From Opitutus sp. GAS368 (lineage in GTDB: Bacteria > Verrucomicrobiota > Verrucomicrobiia > Opitutales > Opitutaceae): a DNA stretch of 40,161 nucleotides. Each line of letters begins with the position of its first letter. Position 1 is the stretch's first letter. Below the pieces are notes generated by a model that made no database searches, had not been told where the DNA came from, and saw only the letters and a list, made by a program, of their open reading frames with translations. The stretch covers positions 1 to 40,161 of the forward strand of contig CAMBVX010000016.1 of assembly GCA_945871085.1 (NCBI GenBank). Reading direction: 5' to 3'. Position numbers and translations under genes: made by a program. This document shows, piece after piece, positions 20,410 through 40,161 of this stretch.

Positions 20410-20450
20410 GCCTCGTCTTTCTCTGTGTCGCGGTGCCTCTGGGGTTCATT
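20410..20450 (+). repeat. CTGTGTC-type phrase repeat before urtE
   Basis: A stretch of the kind CTCTGTGTC-CGGTGCCTCTGGGGTT fills the gap and ends five bases before the urtE ATG. It resembles the CTCTGTG(T/G) phrases found before starts in Verrucomicrobia and Planctomycetes; this is a single copy in the window, recognised by style. Confidence 0.45.
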
Positions 20451-20454
20451 CCGA

Positions 20455-21249
20455 ATGAGCGCCCTCCTCCAACTCACCTCCGTCGAAACTGACATCGCCG
20501 GCTCCCGCATCCTCCGCGGCGTCAATCTTGCGGTAAACGCCGGCGAAGTCGTCGCCCTCATGGGCCGCAACGGCGTCGGTAAAACTACCACGCTCCGCAC
20601 CATCACCGGCCTCCTCCCCGTGCGTGCTGGCACCGTGACGTTCGAAGGCCGCGACATCGCCAAACTCGCCCCCGACGTCCGCGCCCGCGCCGGCATCGCC
20701 TACGTTCCGCAGGGCCGCGACATCTTCCCGCACCTGACCGTCGAGGAAAATCTCCACGTCGGTCTCGTCGTTCACCGTCGCGGCCGCGCCTCCGACCACG
20801 AGGGACTCGAACGCGTCTACAGTCTGTTTCCCGTCCTGAAGGAAATGCTGTCCCGCAAAGGCGGCGTGCTCTCCGGCGGGCAACAACAGCAACTCGCCAT
20901 TGGCCGCGCCCTGCTCACGAAACCGAAGCTCCTCATCCTCGACGAACCCACCGAGGGCATCCAACCGTCGATCATCGACCAGATCGGCGACACGTTGAAA
21001 AAACTGAAGGCACCCCAAGCTCCCGCCGACGTGTTTCAACGCGCGGCGAAGGACGTGCAGGAAATCAAGCACGCGGTCCAGCAGATCAAACACGAACACG
21101 CCCTCGCCATCCTCCTCGTCGAACAATACGTCGATTTTTGCCGCGAAGTCGCCGACCGCTACTACGCCATGGACCGCGGCACCGTCGTCGTGTCCGGCGA
21201 GATTGCTACCCTCACCGACGACGTCGTAAAAAAACATCTCCAAGTCTGA
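20455..21249 (+). CDS. urtE: Urea ABC transporter ATP-binding protein UrtE
   Basis: UrtE is the second ATPase of the urea transporter (LivF type). From ATG 20455 it has 264 residues: Walker A GRNGVGKTT (37-45), signature LSGGQQQQLAIGRAL (139-153), Walker B LLILDEPTEGIQPSII (159-174). It is about 30 residues longer than the usual 230 because of a charged helical insertion at about 184-214, just before the AILLVEQYVDF switch region. It is separated from urtD by about 100 bases holding two repeats, yet still on the same strand. The next gene is ureA. Confidence 0.93.
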   Translation: MSALLQLTSVETDIAGSRILRGVNLAVNAGEVVALMGRNGVGKTTTLRTITGLLPVRAGTVTFEGRDIAKLAPDVRARAGIAYVPQGRDIFPHLTVEENLHVGLVVHRRGRASDHEGLERVYSLFPVLKEMLSRKGGVLSGGQQQQLAIGRALLTKPKLLILDEPTEGIQPSIIDQIGDTLKKLKAPQAPADVFQRAAKDVQEIKHAVQQIKHEHALAILLVEQYVDFCREVADRYYAMDRGTVVVSGEIATLTDDVVKKHLQV

Positions 21250-22039: not shown

Positions 22040-23815
<1,776 letters not shown>

Positions 23816-23841
23816 GCCGGCCCGACTGCTTCGCTCCGCTC

Positions 23842-24303
23842 ATGCAGTTCGTTTCCGGTCCGCTCGCGGCGGCAGATCCTTCCCTCCCTGAAATTGCCCT
23901 GCGCGTCGCACGCCTCACGCTCGCCAAACGCCTCTGGCGAGGCACCGCCGAGGACGGTACCGAGTTCGGTTTCGAACTCGACGCTCCGCTCAAGCCCGGC
24001 GACACGTTTTTCCACTCCGCCACCGCCCGCTACACCGTCCAACAACACCCCGAGCCCGTCGTCGCAGTCTCGCTCGATGTCGCGCCTTCTGCCGCCGCCG
24101 GCCTCGGTTGGGCCATCGGCAATCTCCATCTCGAACTCCAAGCCGAGCCCACGCGCCTCCTTGCGCCAGACGAGCCCGCCGTGCGCCAACTCCTCGATCG
24201 CCTGAAGGTCCCGTTCAAATCGACCACCGCCATTTTTCGCCCCGGCCGTTTCGCCCGCAGTCAACAACCCAGCCATGACCTCGGCCCCAGTCACAAACAC
24301 TGA
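23842..24303 (+). CDS. ureE: Urease accessory protein UreE (nickel chaperone)
   Basis: UreE delivers nickel to the urease activation complex. The 153 residues show the N-terminal peptide-binding-like part (LTLAKRLWRGTAEDGTEFGF) and the central metal-binding part with LGWAIGNLHLELQAE and VRQLLDRLKVPF. The usual His-rich tail is reduced to a short SHKH end. ATG 23842 is the start that fits the family. The last 29 bases overlap ureF in another frame. Confidence 0.9.
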   Translation: MQFVSGPLAAADPSLPEIALRVARLTLAKRLWRGTAEDGTEFGFELDAPLKPGDTFFHSATARYTVQQHPEPVVAVSLDVAPSAAAGLGWAIGNLHLELQAEPTRLLAPDEPAVRQLLDRLKVPFKSTTAIFRPGRFARSQQPSHDLGPSHKH

Positions 24304-25015
24304 CGAAACGCACACGCGTTCCGCGACCGACGCCGCTTGGCTGGTTGGCCTGCTGCAAGCCGGCGACTCCTTCTACCCCACCGGCAGCTATGCTCACTCC
24401 TTCGGCCTCGAAGGCCTCGTGCAACAAGGCGTCGTGCGCGACCGCGCTACGCTCCGCGATTTCATCTTTCTCTCCGCGCTCCCCGCCCTCCGGCACACCG
24501 ATCTCCCGCTCGCCGCCCACGCGTGGCGCACTTTCGGCGAAGCCAACTGGCCGCGTCTCGGCGAACTCTGCAGGCTTTCCTCCGCCCTCAAAACCGCACG
24601 CGAAACCCGCGCTGCTTCCGAAAACATCGGCCGCCAGCGCGCCGAGCTTGTCGCCGGCCTCCGCGTGCACCCACTGGCCCAAGAATATCTCCGCCGCGCC
24701 TCCACCGAAAACTGGCCGCACTCCGCCGCAATTTCCGCTGCACTCGAAGGCCGCGTCCTCGGTGCCCCGCTCACCGCCGTGCTCGCTGGCATTTCGTATT
24801 CAACTCTTGCTTCGCTCCTCTCCGCCGCGATGAAACTTTTACGCCTCGGCCAAAACGCCGCGCAGTCGCTTCTCACCGAAGCCCTCGCGGCCATGCCCGC
24901 CCTCCTCACCGCCGCCGAATCCACCGCCTTCGACGACATCGGCTGGTTCAACCCGTGGCTCGACATCGCCGCCGCCCGCCACGAAATCGCCGACGCCCGC
25001 ATGTTCATTTCCTGA
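24275..25015 (+). CDS. ureF: Urease accessory protein UreF
   Basis: UreF, with UreG and UreD, forms the complex that activates urease and checks metal loading. The 246 residues contain the hallmark GDSFYPTGSYAHSFGLE (30-46) and the helical body with SALKTARETRAASENIGRQ. It overlaps ureE by 29 bases, a sign of translational coupling. About 110 bases with repeats separate it from ureG. Confidence 0.94.
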   Translation: MTSAPVTNTDETHTRSATDAAWLVGLLQAGDSFYPTGSYAHSFGLEGLVQQGVVRDRATLRDFIFLSALPALRHTDLPLAAHAWRTFGEANWPRLGELCRLSSALKTARETRAASENIGRQRAELVAGLRVHPLAQEYLRRASTENWPHSAAISAALEGRVLGAPLTAVLAGISYSTLASLLSAAMKLLRLGQNAAQSLLTEALAAMPALLTAAESTAFDDIGWFNPWLDIAAARHEIADARMFIS

Positions 25016-25028
25016 ACCAAACCTAGTC

Positions 25029-25110
25029 ACCGCGGATCACACGGACAAACACGAATCAAGGCACCGCGCACCGAGGGTTTTATCCGTGTTCATCCGTGCA
25101 ATCCGTGGTT
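25029..25110. repeat. Head-to-head ATCCGTG-type repeat pair before ureG
   Basis: The stretch 25079-25110 matches copy 1 at 21255-21286 with two differences. The stretch 25029-25059 is its imperfect reverse complement (about six mismatches). Together they could fold into a stem of about 30 bp with a 19-base loop. The repeat ends 16 bases before the ureG ATG. Confidence 0.8.
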
Positions 25111-25126
25111 AAGAAAATTCTTCCTC

Positions 25127-25762
25127 ATGTCTCTTAATCGTCCTCCCCGCATCGGCATTGGCGGCCCCGTCGGCTCCGGCAAGACCATGCTCTGTCTCAA
25201 ACTCTGCCAACGTCTCCGCGCGTGCTACTCGATGGCCGTCGTGACCAACGATATTTACTGCTCGGAAGACGCGCAGTTTCTCGTGCAACACCGCGCGCTG
25301 CCCGCCGAACGGATCGTCGGCGTCGAGACCGGCGGATGCCCTCACACCGCCATCCGCGACGATACGACGATGAACGAGCAGGCGTGTCGCGCGCTTGAAG
25401 CAAAGTTTCCCGACCTCCAGCTCCTCCTCGTCGAGAGCGGCGGCGACAACCTCACCGCGACGTTCTCCCCCGAACTCGTCGATGCTTTCATCTATGTGAT
25501 CGACGTCGCGGAGGGCGACAAAATCCCGCGCAAAGGTGGCCCCGCAATCCGGTTCAGCGATCTACTCATCATCAACAAAATCGACCTCGCCCCTCTCGTC
25601 GGGGCCGACCTCGGCGTGATGGACCGCGATGCGAAAATCCAACGCGGCGCGCGCCCGTTTCTTTTCTGCGACCTAAAACGTGAGCACCACCTCGACGCCG
25701 TCATCGCGTGGATCGAGCACGCGGTCTTGTTCGGCAAGAAGCCCGCCGCGGCGTCCCGCTGA
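25127..25762 (+). CDS. ureG: Urease accessory GTPase UreG
   Basis: UreG is the GTPase that carries nickel and drives urease activation. The 211 residues show the P-loop GGPVGSGKT (12-20), [13 protein letters not shown] (41-53; a usual Thr-Lys is replaced by Cys-Ser), the metal-binding CPH (71-73), ESGGDNL and NKIDLAP. ureD starts at its stop codon, overlapping by one base. Confidence 0.96.
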
Positions 25763-31192: not shown

Positions 31193-34102
31193 ATGAACAC
31201 CCGCTACCTGTGGAAACCTGCTACATGGCTTTCCCTCCTCGCCGCCGTCAGCCTGCTGCCCATCGCGGTGGCCCAAACCGCCCCAGCCTCGACCACCGCA
31301 AAATTGGAAGAGACCGCGAAGCTCGAAAAATTCGTCGTCACCGGCTCGCTCATCAAACGCATCGACGGCGAAGGCGCGACACCCTTGCTCACGATCACAC
31401 CGCTCGAAATGGAACAGCGCGGCATTGGTAGCGCTGAGCAAATGCTCATGGAGCTGAATATTAACGGCAACGGCCTCGATAATCTCGCGTCCAATGCCGA
31501 CGTCGTCTCCGGTGCCCAGCGCGGCAATAACGGCGCCACCTCCGCCAATCTCCGCATGCAGGGTGCCGGCGCCACGCTCGTCCTCCTCAACGGCCGACGC
31601 GTTTCGTCGCACGGCCTGAACGGCGGCGTCGTCGACCTGAACCAGATTCCGTTCGCCGCGATCGAGCGCGTCGAAGTCCTCAAGGATGGCGCTTCCGCGA
31701 TCTATGGCACCGACGCCGTCGGTGGCGTCATCAATTTCATCCTGAAAAATAATTATCAGGGCGCGGCGGCCAGCGCGGCCATGGACATGACCGAGCAGGG
31801 CGGCGGTAATATTTTCCGTTACAACGCCGTCGCCGGCTTCGGCGATCTGAGTCGCGACAAATACAACATCATGGCCTCGGTCGCCCTCGCGGACAGCAAG
31901 GTCCTACGCGGCGACCAACGCAAATTCGTGAGCACTTTTCAGGTCGACCGCGGCGTCTCGCCTGACACCCGCGGCACGCCGATCGCCACGCTTTTTACGG
32001 TCGGCTCGCTCAAGACGGCGATCACCGGTGCCGGCCAGGCCAACGGCACCGGCCCGCTTGATCCCGTCGGCACCATCCGCGTCAACGGCATCAACTACGT
32101 CGATGTCCCCGGCGGCCCGGGTTACGCGGGTCTCGACGGCATGGGGCCCTACGACGAAGTGCTCTGGGCCTCGGCTGCCTCGAAATACGGCTCGGCTTGG
32201 GACACCGGTCGCGCTGCCGTCATCCAACAACCGGTTAAAAACAAAAATCTCGTGCTCCGCGGCACGTTTGAGATCGCCCCGCGTCACCGCCTGTCGACCG
32301 AGTTCGTCGCCGGTCGCTCGGAATCAAACAAGAGTTTCTCGCCCAACCAATGGTCCACCTCGGCCACGCTTAACACGACCGCACTCGACGGCCGCACCAC
32401 CGTCCCGAATCCGCTCTACAACCTCACCTATCCGAGCACCGGAGCGTCCTACAACAAAGTCTTCAACGTTCTGGCCAAGTATTTCCCCGAGCTTGAGGCG
32501 AACCGCGGTGAACCCATGGCCTTCCGCTGGCGCTCCCTCCCGCTCGGTAATCGCGCGTTTACCACGACCACTGACACCTATCGCTACATGGCCGGCCTCG
32601 AAGGCCCGCTCGGTTTCCTGTCGCAGTGGGACTATCGCCTCGGCGCCTCTCGCGCCAGCAGCAAGGGCAAATCCACCCTCAACGGCGGCTATGTTTATAC
32701 GGTGCCCTTCGTCACTCTGATCAAGACGGGCGTCGTCGATCCGTTCTCTTACGAGCAGTCAGCCGCGGCGACGACGGCCATCGACAAGATCCGCGCCGAC
32801 GGCGTCTCGCTCTACGGCGGCACGTATCGCACCGACAACCTCGATGCCGCCGCGTCAGGCCCGCTCTTCAAGCTCCCTGCCGGTTCGGTGCAAGCCGCGG
32901 TCGGCCTCGACTGGCGCGAGGAGAATTTCATCTTCAACGGCGACAGCCGCGCGAACCTCAATTCGTCCGACGCCCTGATCTTCAACGCTCCGTTCGATAA
33001 CAGCCTCGCGACCACCGGTTCGCTCAAGCGCACGATCAAGGCGGCGTTCGTGGAACTTCAAGTCCCCATCGCGAAGGGCTTCGACGTCAACCTCGCCGGC
33101 CGCGTCGACGACTACACCGGCTTCGGGCGCTCGACCAATCCGAAGGTCACGCTGCGCTACGCCCCCAACGACACGATCCTGTTCCGCAGTTCCTACAGCA
33201 CCGGTTTCCGCGTCCCGACTTTCAAGCAGCAGCTCGATCCGGTCACCGTCAGCCCCATTGCGTCCACCGGCCTCATCGACCCCGGCACCGGCCGCCAAAT
33301 CGCGCCAAACTCGGCCAACTCTCTCTTTGGCGGCAAGCCCGACCTCCAGCCCGAGGAAGCCAAGATGTATTCCGCCGGCTTCGTCGTGCAGGCGAACAAA
33401 CACCTCAGCTTTAACGTCGACTGGTGGAACGTCGACCGCATCGGCACGATCCAGAGCTTCGGCACCACCGTGCTGCTGGCCAACTACAGCCTCTTCCAAG
33501 ATCGTTTCCGTCGCAATGCCGCGGGCGACATCGTCGAGGTCGACAGTCGCTGGGTGAACGCCGGCCAGAATGTCACCTCCGGCGCGGAGTTTGGCCTCAA
33601 GGGCAACACCGACTTGGCCGGAGGAAAACTGTCCGGCGGATTCGATCTGTCCTACTTGCTGGAGAAGAAATCACGGCTGCTCGCGACCGCGCCGTTCAGC
33701 GTGAGTGAGATCAACCAGTTTACGCGTGCCAGCGACATTGGCCTGCGCTGGAAACACACGGCCTACGTAGCCTACCGCAAGGGCAACTGGACCGGTCAAT
33801 TCAACCAGCTCTTCCGCAACAGCTACATCGATGCGGTGCTCCCCGGCGTCGCCAACGGCACGGTGAAACCCGTCAACTGGAACCCACGCGTGAAGGCCTA
33901 CAATATCTTCGGCCTGAGCGCGACCTACCGCGGCATCAAGCATGTCACGCTCACGGCCGGCATCAAAAACCTCTTTAACACCGACCCGCCCTTCTCCGCC
34001 ACCTACGACACCAACTCCGGTGCCGGCAGCAGCTGGGAACCGCGCATCGCCGATCCCCGCGGTCGTTCCTATACGATGCGCGTCGACTACTCGTTCAAGT
34101 GA
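31193..34102 (+). CDS. TonB-dependent outer-membrane receptor
   Basis: This 969-residue protein is a TonB-dependent receptor. A signal peptide (about 1-28, ending AVAQ) is followed by a Lys-Glu-rich stretch with KFVVTGSLIKR (TonB box-like and plug start), the plug domain (about 44-190, with LVLLNGRRV, ERVEVLKDGASAIYGTDAVGGVINFI) and a large C-terminal barrel with strands such as FRSSYSTGFRVPTFKQ and an ending in YTMRVDYSFK. The substrate cannot be inferred from the protein alone; the neighbouring dehydratase-like gene hints at sugar acids, but there is a terminator between them. The family is expanded in Opitutaceae. Confidence 0.92.
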   Translation: MNTRYLWKPATWLSLLAAVSLLPIAVAQTAPASTTAKLEETAKLEKFVVTGSLIKRIDGEGATPLLTITPLEMEQRGIGSAEQMLMELNINGNGLDNLASNADVVSGAQRGNNGATSANLRMQGAGATLVLLNGRRVSSHGLNGGVVDLNQIPFAAIERVEVLKDGASAIYGTDAVGGVINFILKNNYQGAAASAAMDMTEQGGGNIFRYNAVAGFGDLSRDKYNIMASVALADSKVLRGDQRKFVSTFQVDRGVSPDTRGTPIATLFTVGSLKTAITGAGQANGTGPLDPVGTIRVNGINYVDVPGGPGYAGLDGMGPYDEVLWASAASKYGSAWDTGRAAVIQQPVKNKNLVLRGTFEIAPRHRLSTEFVAGRSESNKSFSPNQWSTSATLNTTALDGRTTVPNPLYNLTYPSTGASYNKVFNVLAKYFPELEANRGEPMAFRWRSLPLGNRAFTTTTDTYRYMAGLEGPLGFLSQWDYRLGASRASSKGKSTLNGGYVYTVPFVTLIKTGVVDPFSYEQSAAATTAIDKIRADGVSLYGGTYRTDNLDAAASGPLFKLPAGSVQAAVGLDWREENFIFNGDSRANLNSSDALIFNAPFDNSLATTGSLKRTIKAAFVELQVPIAKGFDVNLAGRVDDYTGFGRSTNPKVTLRYAPNDTILFRSSYSTGFRVPTFKQQLDPVTVSPIASTGLIDPGTGRQIAPNSANSLFGGKPDLQPEEAKMYSAGFVVQANKHLSFNVDWWNVDRIGTIQSFGTTVLLANYSLFQDRFRRNAAGDIVEVDSRWVNAGQNVTSGAEFGLKGNTDLAGGKLSGGFDLSYLLEKKSRLLATAPFSVSEINQFTRASDIGLRWKHTAYVAYRKGNWTGQFNQLFRNSYIDAVLPGVANGTVKPVNWNPRVKAYNIFGLSATYRGIKHVTLTAGIKNLFNTDPPFSATYDTNSGAGSSWEPRIADPRGRSYTMRVDYSFK

Positions 34103-34140
34103 TCCCCTGACCGGATAACTGCTTCGCTCTCCGCTCTCCA

Positions 34141-34172
34141 CGGCCTCCGGCACTACCGCCGGAGGCCGTTTT
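34141..34172 (+). terminator. Terminator after the TonB-dependent receptor
   Basis: Perfect 11-bp arms CGGCCTCCGGC (34141-34151) and GCCGGAGGCCG (34158-34168) enclose a 6-base loop, followed by TTTTCTTTT. Confidence 0.92.
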
Positions 34173-34205
34173 CTTTTGCGTGTCTTTCGCGCCTTTCGTG
34201 GTTCC
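34173..34205 (+). repeat. CTTTCG-type phrase repeat before the UxaA-like gene
   Basis: The stretch has the repeating form GTGTCTTTCGCGCCTTTCG followed by TGGTTCC, ending 16 bases before the ATG. It is a single copy in this window, recognised by its style as one of the short phrase repeats found before genes here. Confidence 0.4.
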
Positions 34206-34221: not shown

Positions 34222-36948
34222 ATGGCGCCCTCCCCGCTCGAACTCTCTGCCGTCAGCCGTCTCCCCGCCCCCGCCGACAACGTCGCCATCGCGACCCGCC
34301 GCCTCGAAGCCGGCACCGTCCTCGCGCTCTCCACCGGCCCCCGTGCGCTCACGCACACCGTGCTCGAAGGCCATCGTTTCGCGGTCGCTTCCATCTCCAC
34401 CGGCGCGCCGCTCCTTTCGTGGGGACTTCCCTTCGGCACCGCGCTCGTCGAGATCGCGGCGGGTGACTACGTGTGCAACCAGTCCTCCCTCGACATGCTC
34501 GCCGTCCGCCAACTCGACGGCGCCGTCCGGCCCGACCGCGCCAACTTCTCCGATCAACGCGCCGAATTTTCATTCGACGAAACATCGTTCACGGCCGCGC
34601 CGCCCACGCCGCTCGCCGATGCGCCCCGCACCTTTCAGGGCTACCGCCGCCCGGGTCGCCGCGGCGTCGGCACGCGCAACACCCTCGTCATCCTCGGCAC
34701 CACGTCGCGCACGGCGAGTTTCGCGCGCCAGCTCACCGCCCGGCTGCAAGCCCTCGCCCGCGTGCACCCGTCGCTCGATGGCATCGTCGCCATCGCGCAC
34801 ACCGAGGGCGGCGGCACGGGCGAACCGAACAACGCTCTCGAGGTCCTCCGCGCGCTCGCCGGTTTTATGGTGCACCCCAACGTCGGCGCCGTGCTCGCCG
34901 TCGACTACGGCGTCGAACCGATCACCAACACCCGCCTCGCTGCGTTTCTGCGCGATCGCGGCTACCCGCTCGACGACGTGCCGCACGCGTTTCTCTCGAT
35001 TCAGGGCGGACTCGCCGCCGCTCTCGCCGACGGCGAGAAAATCGTGCGCGGCTGGCTGCCCGCTGTGTCCGCCCAACGTCGCACCCCCGAGCCGCTCTCC
35101 GCGTTACGCATCGCGCTCCAATGCGGCGGCTCCGACGCGTTTTCCGGTGTATCCGGTAATCCCCTCGCCGGCGCCATCGTGCACGAGACCATCCGCCATG
35201 GCGGCACCGGCGTGCTCACGGAAATCGATGAGGCCGTCGGCGCCGAATCCTACATCATGAAGCGCGTGCGCGACCTCGCCACCGCGCGGGAGTTCATGCA
35301 CCGGCTCGCGGATTTCCAGACGCGTCTCGGCTGGCACGGCGTCTCGCCCGAAAACAATCCCTCCGGCGGCAACAAACTCCGCGGCCTCTACAACATCGCG
35401 ATCAAGTCGCTCGGCGCCGTGCACAAAAAGGACCCGCGCACCCGGCTCGATTTTGTCACCGACTACGCCGCCCCGCTCGCCGCGCCCGGCTTCTATTTTA
35501 TGGTCGGCCCCGGCAACGACCTCGAGGGCGTCGCCGGCCAAATCGCCGCTGGCTGCAACCTCGTCCTCTTTGTCACCGGCAACGGCTCGATCACGAATTT
35601 CCCGTTCGTGCCCACCCTGAAAATCACGACCACCACCCGCCGCCACCAACTCCTCGTGCACGAGATGGACATCAACGCCGGCCGCTACCTCGACGGCGAA
35701 TCGTTCGAGGCCCTCGCCGCCGAGAGTTTCGAGCTCACGCTCGCCACCGCCTCCGGAAAAAAATCCAAGGGCGAACACGCCGGCCACTCGCAAGTGTCCA
35801 TTTTGCGCAACTGGGCGCAGACCGACGGCTCACGTCTCACCGAAATCCGCGCCCGCCCCGTCCCCGACGGCCTGCCATTGGGTAGGAGCCTGCTTGCAGG
35901 CGATTCCCCGCCGCCACCGCCCTACCCAGTTACGCTCAACATCTTCGCCACCGAGCACGGCTTTGCCACCGAACGCGTCGCGCTCGTTTTGCCCACGAGC
36001 CTCTGCGCCGCGCAAATTTCCCGTCTCGCCGCCGATCGTCTCAACGAAAAACGCATCGGTGCCGCCCAGGGTATTTCACGCTTTGTCGCGCTCGTGCACA
36101 CCGAAGGCTGCGGCTTCGGCGGCGAATCCATGCACCAGTTGCTCCACCGCGCCTACCGCGGCTACGTCACGCACCCCAACGTCGCCGCCGCGCTCCTCCT
36201 CGAGCACGGCTGCGAAAAAGTCCCGAACGATCTCATGCGCCACAAACTCGAGGCCGCCGGTGTGTCCGCCGCGCGTTTCGGTTGGGCCAGCGTCCAACTC
36301 GATGGCGGCATCGCCAAAGCCCTGGACAAGGTCGAAGCGTGGTTCGCCGCGAAGCTCGCCGATCTTCCGCCCGCACCGACCGTCCCCGCCGACCTCGGCG
36401 CCCTGTCGCTTGGCCTCCTCACCACCGCACCGACCCACGACTCCACCGTCGCGGCCCTCGTCGCCGTGGCCCAACAGATCCTCCACCACGGCGGCTCGGT
36501 GCTCATCCCCGAAAGCGATCCGCTGCTCGCCGATCGCCGTTTCTCCTCAGCCCTGCTCGGTGACCGTCCCCCGCATGCCACGCTCCTCTACGGTCAACCG
36601 CTCACCACGCCCGGCTTCCATATCGTCGCGAGCGAAACCGATCACTGGGTCGAAAACCTCACCGGCCTCGGTGCCTGCGGCGCGCACCTCGCGCTCACCG
36701 TCGTCGACCAACACGCCCGCCAAGGCCACCCGTTACTGCCGGTCATCCAGGTCGCGGAATCCACCCAACGTGGAGTCATCCCCGCCGACGACATCGATCT
36801 TTTCCTGACAGACCAAGCCGACGAAAATTCCGCCGCGCTCACCCAACTCCTCGTCGCCATCGCCCAACGCGACCGCCTCCCCGCCGTCTCGTCAACCGGC
36901 TCCGTCGACTTCCAATTCACCCGCGGCCTCCTCGGCGTAACGACGTAA
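34222..36948 (+). CDS. Double-length altronate/galactarate dehydratase-like protein (UxaA/GarD family)
   Basis: At 908 residues this is nearly twice the family's usual 500. Residues 10-90 look like the N-terminal SAF domain. From about 138 to 545 a first UxaA unit has HTEGGGTGEPNN (193-204), HPNVGAVLAVDYGVEPITN (218-236) and the conserved LQCGGSDAFSGVSGNPLAG (299-317), GGTGVLTEIDEAVGAE and PGNDLEGVAGQ. From about 582 to 905 a second unit repeats the same order: HTEGCGFGGESMHQLL (626-641), HPNVAAALLLEHGCEKVPND (651-670), HHGGSVLIPESDP, GACGAHLAL. The first unit lacks the Cys of GCG and GCE; the second has these but lacks the LQCGGSD segment. The link at 553-570 includes PPPPP and is encoded in part by a REP-like element. 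The start ATG 34222 matches the family. The protein may dehydrate a sugar acid; the substrate is unknown. Confidence 0.88.
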   Translation: MAPSPLELSAVSRLPAPADNVAIATRRLEAGTVLALSTGPRALTHTVLEGHRFAVASISTGAPLLSWGLPFGTALVEIAAGDYVCNQSSLDMLAVRQLDGAVRPDRANFSDQRAEFSFDETSFTAAPPTPLADAPRTFQGYRRPGRRGVGTRNTLVILGTTSRTASFARQLTARLQALARVHPSLDGIVAIAHTEGGGTGEPNNALEVLRALAGFMVHPNVGAVLAVDYGVEPITNTRLAAFLRDRGYPLDDVPHAFLSIQGGLAAALADGEKIVRGWLPAVSAQRRTPEPLSALRIALQCGGSDAFSGVSGNPLAGAIVHETIRHGGTGVLTEIDEAVGAESYIMKRVRDLATAREFMHRLADFQTRLGWHGVSPENNPSGGNKLRGLYNIAIKSLGAVHKKDPRTRLDFVTDYAAPLAAPGFYFMVGPGNDLEGVAGQIAAGCNLVLFVTGNGSITNFPFVPTLKITTTTRRHQLLVHEMDINAGRYLDGESFEALAAESFELTLATASGKKSKGEHAGHSQVSILRNWAQTDGSRLTEIRARPVPDGLPLGRSLLAGDSPPPPPYPVTLNIFATEHGFATERVALVLPTSLCAAQISRLAADRLNEKRIGAAQGISRFVALVHTEGCGFGGESMHQLLHRAYRGYVTHPNVAAALLLEHGCEKVPNDLMRHKLEAAGVSAARFGWASVQLDGGIAKALDKVEAWFAAKLADLPPAPTVPADLGALSLGLLTTAPTHDSTVAALVAVAQQILHHGGSVLIPESDPLLADRRFSSALLGDRPPHATLLYGQPLTTPGFHIVASETDHWVENLTGLGACGAHLALTVVDQHARQGHPLLPVIQVAESTQRGVIPADDIDLFLTDQADENSAALTQLLVAIAQRDRLPAVSSTGSVDFQFTRGLLGVTT
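35882..35905. repeat. GTAG-led REP-like palindrome inside the UxaA-like gene
   Basis: The element starts GTAG (35882-35885) and carries GCCTGC (35888-35893), TT, GCAGGC (35896-35901). It is read in frame as LGRSLLAGDS at the joint between the two UxaA units, so it does not break the gene. Confidence 0.7.
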
Positions 36949-38900: not shown

Positions 38901-38947
38901 ATATTTTATGTCTCGATTTTGTATTCGAAATAGCGTCTATCTTGGGC

Positions 38948-40161
38948 ATGGAGCAGCAACCCAAGGCACCAGATGACTTCAAACCTCGGCGCGGCGGCAG
39001 CGGTAAATTGAGGGTCTGGCAGTGGCTCATTGACCCGCGCATCACGATCCGCGAACGCCTGAACGCATCCGGTGGGCTCGGCTACCGCGTCACCCTGCCC
39101 AAGAAACTCACCGGCGGTCCGGTGATCTTCCTCCAAAGCCGCGATTTTGAAGCCGCCAAGGAAATTGTCCGCAGTCGGGGCAAAGAGTTTCGCGAGAGCC
39201 GGTCGACCGCACTCGCCCTGCCCGACGACAAGAAGCTCCAAGCCGCCTCCGCCGTGCGCACGCTCCACGAACACGGCCTCACCCTCGGCCTCGACGAGAT
39301 CGCCCGCCGCTATTGCGCCGCCGACGCCACGTTGAAAGGCCACGTCCTTGGCGTCCCCGAAGCCGCCACGCTCCTCGCGTCCCTCCTCGTGCTCACCCAG
39401 CGCACCGGAAAGGCCCTGCCCGACGTTGTGGCCTTCGCGGTCGAACGCCTTTGCCCGGCCGGCGGGACCAAGACCCTCGCCGAGATCACTGCCGAGATGA
39501 TCGAGATCAAGCGGGGTTGGCTTGCACGCGGCGACCTCCGCAAAGCCTCCTTCCACGACTTCGAGATCCGCGCCGGCAAGATCGGCAAGGACATCGGCTC
39601 GTTCCCGCTTCCCGACCTCACCAAACAAATCGCCTACGATTGGCTCAACGGGCTGATCCTCGCGCCGCGCACCAAGAAGAATTACCGCATGGTGCTCTCC
39701 GAAGTCCTCTCCTACGCAAAGCAGAAGCGTTACATCGCCACCAGCCCGCTCGAAGAATTCACGCGCTCTGACGTCAAGGAACTCGAAGGCTCTGGCGGCG
39801 AAAGCCATCAACCCGCGATCCTCACGACGAAACAGGCCGGAAAACTCCTCACCACCGCCTTCGCTCACCCCGAGTGGGACCTCGGAGCCGCCGTCGTGCT
39901 CGGCCTCTTCGGCGGCATTCGCACCGAGGAAATCAAACGTCTCACATGGGACGCCGTGCGCTTGGACGAAGAACACCCCTTCGTCGTCATCGGCCCGGAA
40001 ATCGCCAAGAAGCGCCGGATTCGCAACGTCCCGCTGCCCGATTGCGCCGTCGCATGGCTGCGCCGCTGGCCGCGCGGCGAAAAGGTCACCCGTTCGGAGC
40101 ACGTCAATCAGTTTCAAAAGCATTTCCTCAAGCTCGCCGCCAAAGCCGAGATCACATGGGA
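38948..40161 (+). CDS. Tyrosine integrase, cut off by the window end
   Basis: This reading frame opens at ATG 38948 (TTG 38942 also possible) and stays open to the window end (404 full codons, missing the C-terminus). It has an N-terminal part (PKKLTGGPVIFLQSRDFEAA), a SAM-like core-binding region (LTKQIAYDWLNGLILAPRTK) and the start of the catalytic domain: the Arg I box LFGGIRTEEIKRLTWDAV and the beta-hairpin Lys region IAKKRRIRNVPLPD. The HxRH and Tyr parts lie beyond the edge. Right after ssrA it is the likely integrase of a genomic island. Confidence 0.88.
   Translation, partial: MEQQPKAPDDFKPRRGGSGKLRVWQWLIDPRITIRERLNASGGLGYRVTLPKKLTGGPVIFLQSRDFEAAKEIVRSRGKEFRESRSTALALPDDKKLQAASAVRTLHEHGLTLGLDEIARRYCAADATLKGHVLGVPEAATLLASLLVLTQRTGKALPDVVAFAVERLCPAGGTKTLAEITAEMIEIKRGWLARGDLRKASFHDFEIRAGKIGKDIGSFPLPDLTKQIAYDWLNGLILAPRTKKNYRMVLSEVLSYAKQKRYIATSPLEEFTRSDVKELEGSGGESHQPAILTTKQAGKLLTTAFAHPEWDLGAAVVLGLFGGIRTEEIKRLTWDAVRLDEEHPFVVIGPEIAKKRRIRNVPLPDCAVAWLRRWPRGEKVTRSEHVNQFQKHFLKLAAKAEITW

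Follow-up and report, generated by a model that had tools for sequence, protein, structure and literature searches.

A fused double UxaA/GarD-type protein of Opitutus sp. GAS368 and its relatives divides the four conserved cysteines of the family between its two halves

D-Altronate dehydratase (UxaA) and galactarate dehydratase (GarD) carry four conserved cysteines in one copy of about 500 amino acids (aa), and a gene of Opitutus sp. GAS368 (Opitutaceae) raises the question of what becomes of such an enzyme when two copies are joined in one chain and the cysteines are spread over both. The gene lies on contig CAMBVX010000016.1 (assembly GCA_945871085.1), of which positions 1 to 40,161, a stretch of 40,161 nucleotides called the window below, were analysed. 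A preliminary description, made from the letters of the DNA, had placed here an open reading frame (ORF) of tandem UxaA units with complementary loss of motifs. Its coordinates are correct (Table 1), the frame encodes 908 aa, and alignments of the closest homologs with this protein begin at residue 1, although an alternative upstream start exists (GTG at 34180). We found that each of the four canonical cysteines is retained exactly once in the fused proteins, one in the first half (half 1) and three in the second (half 2), and we consider it quite probable that the protein is a fused pseudo-dimer dehydratase with one composite iron or iron-sulfur (Fe-S) site.

The protein shares with UxaA and GarD the domain order SAF - GD_AH_second - GD_AH_C, the CGGSD and NPSxGN motifs and the four cysteines. 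The SAF domain is clear by structure (VIA-align with 3k3s_H: Z 13.6, 84 residues, root-mean-square deviation (rmsd) 1.8) and is matched by phmmer (3k3s_A, E 1.1e-9), with a sub-threshold Pfam score (15.5 bits, cut-off 21). Pfam recognized GD_AH_second twice (D2 in half 1, D2' in half 2) and GD_AH_C twice (D3 and D3'), the bit scores being those of the protein cut into four pieces; the second GD_AH_C match (22.6 bits) lies below the cut-off of 26.8 and covers profile positions 115-218 of 242. Above the Pfam cut-offs, half 1 therefore has both domains of the UxaA/GarD superfamily (COG2721) and half 2 has GD_AH_second only. The GarD equivalog model TIGR03248 gave 178.1 bits against an NCBIfam cut-off of 730.85. 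CGGSD is absent from D3', which ends in a conserved tail, FQFTRGLLGV. The second half is homologous to the first, as the preliminary description had supposed: BLASTP aligned the two halves with an E value of 6e-13 and 23% identity, and a half-2 profile aligned over both domains with three canonical UxaA/GarD proteins (hhalign, probability 99.5).

The same description had read GGG and YGVE in half 1, where the family has GCG and GCE, beside an intact LQCGGSD, and HTEGCG and GCE in a half 2 that lacks CGGSD. All of these readings hold (HTEGGG in half 1, HGCEK in half 2), and the homologs of equal length that it had proposed to collect extend them. We gathered 90 full-length rows, i.e., the window and 89 loci drawn from 110 loci (loci are numbered with the prefix L), leaving out identical rows and rows spanning fewer than 780 query residues before counting (effective number of sequences 67 at 80% identity). 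The only invariant cysteines are C301 in half 1 and C595, C630 and C664 in half 2 (each 90/90), and the next-best cysteine column of the fused family reaches 75/90. The half-1 counterparts of the latter three, R163, G197 and V231, are cysteine in 0/90 rows at each position (R in 70, Q in 9, L in 8 and others at 163; G in 76, D in 8 and others at 197; V in 41, T in 15 and others at 231), and in none of the 90 rows does a cysteine occur within three residues of them. Seven rows have a cysteine somewhere in aa 728-742, around the lost CGGSD of half 2. R163 and C595 correspond to a third canonical cysteine (C132 in Escherichia coli UxaA, C144 in GarD), the splitting of which goes beyond the preliminary description. 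As judged from the alignment, the complementary pattern is not a product of chance, because the four cysteines are invariant, the lost positions never hold one and none is found nearby.

As a control, 39 canonical UxaA/GarD rows, mostly from one phylum, were counted; their four cysteine columns (132, 166, 199 and 264 in E. coli UxaA; 144, 179, 215 and 288 in GarD; 134, 169, 204 and 272 in Azospirillum) were occupied in 38, 39, 39 and 39 rows, the sole miss being a gap in L111. Without this locus all four columns reach 38/38 and the next best 31/38, in a set that includes two pairs of rows identical in the second domain. Neither half of the fused proteins has all four cysteines within one D2-D3 copy of about 500 aa, so the conserved residues do not all lie in one half, and a duplicated protein with its conserved positions divided between the copies, as first proposed, is found in 90/90 full-length rows.

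Two further elements, also new relative to the preliminary description, are divided in the same manner. The canonical glutamine (Q225 in UxaA) is Q in 38/38 canonical rows, in 90/90 rows of half 2 (Q692) and in 0/90 of half 1, where its counterpart is mostly S, T or R. The arginine and asparagine of GTRN (R121 and N122 in UxaA) are each present in 90/90 rows of half 1, where D2 retains GVGTRN beside the three replaced cysteines; in half 2 they occur in 0/90 and 1/90, in an alignment that is gapped just ahead of the motif. Other positions do not discriminate between the copies: UxaA H162, G165, H186 and G198 are retained in both halves, P187 in 89/90 (half 1) and 79/90 (half 2), H193/H626 and H218/H651 are present in both, and V130 and L197 are lost in both. 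D3 of half 1 retains CGGSD, SG, N, E-x-x-E, NP/NPSxGN, GN, K395, TGxG, P, K, D483 and G487, and columns conserved at 95% number 93/246 in D3 versus 12/192 in D3'.

We infer from this a single composite site, an iron centre within it and a class of reaction. Tandem duplication and fusion of an ancestral UxaA/GarD gene would have produced a covalent pseudo-dimer in which half 1 supplies the substrate-binding C-terminal domain, C301 and GTRN, and half 2, with its own CGGSD-type motifs lost, supplies the part of the second domain that holds three cysteines and Q692. C595, C630 and C664 would ligate an iron or Fe-S centre, with C301 as the fourth ligand or a neighbour, and this composite centre would face the substrate held by half 1. 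Rather than mononuclear iron, the site may hold an Fe-S centre with three cysteines or of the 3+1 type. The chemistry is probably sugar-acid dehydration, in which the alpha proton and the beta hydroxyl would be removed from an aldonate- or aldarate-type acid to yield a 2-keto-3-deoxy acid. Of the two sites in the ancestral dimer, the other would have decayed, so that D2 would no longer need its cysteines, nor D2' and D3' the GTRN and CGGSD motifs.

The preliminary description had offered two mechanisms, a composite site across the halves or one active and one regulatory half; the first fits the conserved residues best and the second fits them more poorly, since neither half has the full set. 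In its most explicit form the second would make half 1 an enzyme with altered, cysteine-poor chemistry (e.g., with a divalent metal) and half 2 a regulatory or redox Fe-S sensor. Half 1 does keep all of D3 and much of D2, the contrast in 95% columns between D3 and D3' agrees with this, and a single domain with three cysteines might suffice to hold a cluster. However, half 1 has lost exactly the cysteines that ordinary proteins keep in 38/38 rows and yet has C301 in every row, the canonical glutamine kept as Q692 would be an unlikely remnant in a pure sensor, half 2 has lost CGGSD together with part of the surrounding domain, and among the hits no relative with the half-1 cysteine losses but no half 2 was found, save for frames that end at the end of their locus. 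We therefore regard a sensor as quite unlikely. It is still less probable that each half has an independent site for an unlike substrate. The histidine of HTEG and the HP of HPN are present in both halves, and both have the fold of a GarD subunit, but the GD_AH_C match of half 2 starts only at profile position 115 and lacks CGGSD, NPSPGN and TGRG, half 1 has only one of the four cysteines, and a complete set occurs in neither.

The structure prediction and superposition on GarD that had been proposed at the outset were carried out. An AlphaFold2 (AF2) model of the full-length single chain, built on a 73-sequence alignment, had a predicted local distance difference test (pLDDT) score of 93.0 and a predicted template modelling (pTM) score of 0.93; its half 1 matched GarD (6u7l_C) over 439 residues (VIA-align, rmsd 3.0, Z 43.8). 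Half 2 folded alone (AF2, 59 sequences) had a pLDDT of 90.9 and matched 6u7l_D over 299 residues, at chain positions 114-523 (VIA-align, rmsd 3.7, Z 27.4). Both halves superpose on GarD subunits, and therefore each can be described as a GarD-like pseudo-subunit. Matches to CO dehydrogenase, UDP-GlcNAc 2-epimerase, glycosyltransferases and NAD kinase were not used (Z at most 9.2 in VIA-align, or mostly rmsd >15 in Foldseek). The composite site might also form between chains, half 2 of one polypeptide completing half 1 of another, a variant that overlaps with the composite site within one chain. The linker is variable, and an AF2 job on a single chain does not separate cis from trans; the single-chain model is nevertheless already confident, including the C630 loop and the C-terminal tail, and we think the variant unlikely.

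Several results count against the composite site. Foldseek superpositions were looser, with rmsd 4.2-5.0 for the full model and 6.2-7.1 for half 2 (query TM-score 0.64-0.66). The model confidence speaks partly in its favour: in half 2 alone, the pLDDT block mean fell to 57 at aa 626-635, with values <50 at 629-631 (the GCG of HTEGCG), and to 46 and 31 in the tail (aa 898-908), versus 90 and 85 (HTEGCG loop) and 93 and 88 (tail) in overlapping blocks of the full model, a contrast between two jobs with unlike alignments (73 and 59 rows). It suggests that, in the models, half 1 supports both the C630 loop and the conserved tail, but the blocks of C595 (90 alone, 90 full) and C664 (91 alone, 87 full) showed no drop without it. 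In the models, moreover, D2 and D3 of each half are placed roughly as in a single GarD chain. Should the site of the ordinary enzymes be contained in one chain, C301 would lie opposite a D2 devoid of cysteines and the composite account would fail, and the reading of half 2 as a sensor, or of the two halves as having two functions, would return.

The C-terminal domain of half 1 also differs as a class from its canonical counterparts, with P299 changed to D in 88 of the 90 rows, G350 to R in 89, T354 to N in 90, R416 to N in 87 and L435 to R in 90. The arginine of TGRG (R416) is present in 38/38 canonical and 1/90 fused rows, and is a trait of the canonical rows sampled, no formal definition of the superfamily by this residue being known. 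The altered TGRG may mean that the chemistry or the substrate of the fused family is different and, as far as the sequence can tell, argues against altronate or galactarate as the substrate. Covariation, computed as mutual information with average-product correction over the 90 rows, at first seemed to favour a pairing of D3 with D2', which made up 22 of the top 100 pairs (3.39x expectation), compared with 5 for D2-D3 (0.71x) and 7 for D2'-D3' (0.87x). When the two clades (51 and 39 rows) were taken apart, the D3-D2' enrichment in the top 100 was 1.25x and 2.1x, and in the combined clade ranking it was 0.78, 1.2 and 1.1 for the top 100, 300 and 1000 pairs (D2-D3: 0.56, 0.46 and 0.49). The support that covariation appears to lend to this pairing is thus weak and mostly gone after clade separation. 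Finally, no gene neighbouring the fused-gene loci is conserved across phyla.

To place the origin of the two halves, a tree of the second domain was built from 95 rows (24 of half 1, 24 of half 2, and 47 canonical and short). Half 1 forms one clade (98/96), half 2 forms one clade (100/99), and a single branch (98/85) separates the 47 canonical and short rows from both halves, in a tree in which the bootstrap was unsettled, L027 and GarD are long branches carrying a long-branch warning, and only a midpoint root is available (the midpoint drawing puts half 2 outside all other rows). The tree agrees with a duplicated protein and is consistent with a single internal duplication that preceded the spread over phyla; the division of residues would also have been fixed before that spread, because no intermediate occurs among the 90 rows. 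A fusion of two unrelated paralogs is not favoured, as both halves fall on one side of the canonical split, and an assembly or frameshift artefact was rejected, since many assemblies contribute to the 90 rows with the double form. It also occurs in records of three named strains, those of Rubrobacter taiwanensis (L086), Rubrobacter indicoceani and Pantoea soli.

The fused form belongs to a known enzyme superfamily, of which it is a widespread variant. The single match in its own genome is the window itself. Among 100 genomes of the same family (its own included), 22 have a match of at least 840 of the 908 residues in one open frame, and a few further matches are split or incomplete. Relatives are encoded in 110 stretches of the named collection; the titles of the best 80 of these mention Verrucomicrobia/Opitutaceae, Chloroflexi, Latescibacterota, Gemmatimonadota, Poribacteria and Acidobacteria, further Rubrobacter, proteobacterial classes, SAR324 and Pirellula (two metagenome-assembled genomes), these being titles of mostly metagenome-assembled genomes and not checked placements. 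Elsewhere the fused form is thinly spread: the full-length form is present in 3/301 genomes of the phylum of one source genome (G286) and in 1/274 of the class of another (G287), the one being G287 itself. Of 314 matching records in the plasmid collection two cover at least 80%, those of R. indicoceani and P. soli, both annotated as 'UxaA family hydrolase'. A standalone half 2 was not found in the plasmid collection, where 90 records matched and coverage of at least 80% was reached only in the two fused proteins; L171, a candidate for it, matched neither profile, and by eye its sequence resembles another enzyme. Among the hits there was likewise no standalone half 1 with the cysteine losses (the half-1-only frames of L024 and L025 reach the ends of their loci). 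In each of ten single-copy relatives (L179-L188), which are ordinary, CGGSD is accompanied by GCE. No close relatives were detected in viral contigs, where the canonical-protein alignment as a query gave two canonical UxaA genes.

Among the known members of the superfamily, the best comparison is D-arabinonate dehydratase C785_RS13685 of Herbaspirillum huttiense, described as a brown iron protein of the UxaA/GarD superfamily, in which Cys134, Cys173, Cys208 and Cys276 are the only cysteines conserved in the superfamily, sulfolactate sulfo-lyase excepted (PMC6336799). If the site is of the rubredoxin type, one ferric iron with four cysteine ligands was proposed, and further analysis was called for; the argument rests on electron paramagnetic resonance (EPR) and conservation, and cysteine-to-serine changes were made (PMC6336799). 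These four cysteines resemble our four columns in number, order and rough spacing, the sequence itself standing outside our alignment. The enzyme is described as an ordinary member, and the portions of that paper drawn on here do not mention a fused double form (PMC6336799). Members encoded by two genes, SuyAB and a heteromeric L-fuconate dehydratase (the latter named in PMC6336799), likewise have the parts of the enzyme divided between polypeptide segments. We found a two-gene form at nine loci (L160-L167 and L170), where each short UxaA-type frame (397-474 aa) is accompanied in the same stretch by a SAF frame of its own (100-141 aa). Only SAF is detached at these loci, and a single copy still holds both the second and the C-terminal domain (in L160, the sole short-form sequence inspected, CGGSD and GCE are intact), whereas the fused form has a whole second D2-D3 copy with the cysteines divided. 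The preliminary description was aware of no described case, and no fused double UxaA/GarD protein appeared in the titles and abstracts listed from the open PubMed Central (PMC) literature, most subscription papers lying beyond this scope. Nor did we find, in the literature searched, a description of fused copies that share out the proposed metal-site residues as strictly as in our alignment. In the open PMC literature we also found no paper that places the four cysteines in the GarD structure, the GarD structure paper lying beyond this scope. On the whole, the finding of the preliminary description stands, and it is stronger than was stated there.

The coordinates of the gene, its parts and its upstream neighbours are collected in Table 1.

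Table 1. Positions in the window of the fused gene, its domains and key residues, and of features upstream of it
Feature	Position	Strand	Remarks
TonB-dependent receptor gene	31193-34102		upstream of dehydratase gene
Terminator-like hairpin	34140-34169		12 pairs, 10 of them GC, then TTTCTTTTGC; between TonB receptor and dehydratase genes
Fused UxaA/GarD-type coding sequence, 908 aa	34222-36948	+	ATG at 34222, stop 36946-36948
SAF domain, aa 9-112	34246-34557	+	structure match and phmmer
Half 1 second domain (D2), aa 140-282	34639-35067	+	GD_AH_second, 92.9 bits
GVGTRN motif, half 1, aa 148-153	34663-34680	+	half 2 without motif
Half 1 C-terminal domain (D3), aa 292-531, intact	35095-35814	+	GD_AH_C (PF20629), 256.7 bits, profile 1-240 of 242
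Cys301 of LQCGGSD	35122-35124	+	sole canonical Cys left in half 1; 90/90
Linker joining the halves, aa 532-579	35815-35958	+	length varies; conservation, pLDDT, lengths
Half 2 second domain (D2'), aa 580-716, with three Cys and Q692	35959-36369	+	GD_AH_second (PF04295), 67.4 bits
Cys595 (UxaA C132)	36004-36006	+	90/90
Cys630 of HTEGCG (UxaA C166)	36109-36111	+	90/90
Cys664 of HGCEK (UxaA C199)	36211-36213	+	90/90
Gln692 (UxaA Q225)	36295-36297	+	Q in 90/90 of half 2
Half 2 truncated C-terminal domain (D3'), aa 717-908	36370-36945	+	PF20629, profile 115-218 only

In the linker, 1/48 columns is conserved at 95%, and the pLDDT block means of the full-length model drop to 70 and 69 at aa 551-570. 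It contains, in frame inside the coding sequence, a 25-base palindrome (35882-35906), which we take to be a REP-like (repetitive extragenic palindromic) element; its 21-base core has 27 copies in the genome at no more than one mismatch, versus 0 for a reversed control, and the first eight bases have no gene-strand match in loci L031-L034.

The neighbours in the window give nothing firm on the substrate of the dehydratase. Co-transcription with the TonB-dependent receptor gene is doubtful because of the hairpin between them, the longest of four such sites in the scanned region (1.9 in shuffles), which ends shortly 5' of the alternative GTG start. Downstream, on the opposite strand, there is a weak acyltransferase-3 match. 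Elsewhere in the window there are a urease cluster (22040-25762: urease alpha, UreF and UreG-type (cobW family) proteins), with which an ATP-binding cassette (ABC) transporter ATPase lies at 20425-21249, and an integrase-like ORF (38942-40159; PF00589, 29.7 bits) that runs past the right end of the window.

Outside the window, gene context was set aside as a weak guide to the substrate. The commonest neighbour cluster, an ABC-transporter ATPase, occurs in 13/81 sources, and none of 100 Pfam families was found in more than three of 125 neighbour ORFs (125 of 160 selected, mechanically called ORFs, leaving out L104-L106 and L108, which share neighbours). In those four loci the neighbours are HpcH aldolase, 2-hydroxyacid dehydrogenase, IlvD/Edd, DHDPS-type and Ldh_2 genes, which fits sugar-acid catabolism and names no substrate. 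In P. soli the order is GntR - fused UxaA - FAH hydrolase - 2-keto-3-deoxygluconate permease, an operon that supports the class of sugar-acid dehydration, again naming no substrate.

The nature of the catalytic centre in UxaA/GarD dehydratases seems not to be settled, and GarD is reportedly a homodimer. In the fused family, evolution has split the four cysteines into three and one, each group with other motifs, which points to the residues that must act together. If the fused protein is a pseudo-dimer with a composite site, the sites of the ordinary enzymes are therefore predicted to be shared between subunits, and the pairing of cysteines and motifs predicts a site at the subunit interface. 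In the superfamily as a whole, three cysteines and the glutamine of one second domain would meet the CGGSD, GTRN and substrate domain of the partner; the fused form would have kept one Fe-S site, with half 2 freed to be a cluster holder with a new substrate range. We put the chances for and against this wider proposal at about even. The fused family would be a clear example of a fused homodimer in which one of two sites has seemingly survived and the residues are strictly divided; if the wider proposal is true, it would also be a natural complementation experiment for the whole UxaA/GarD superfamily.

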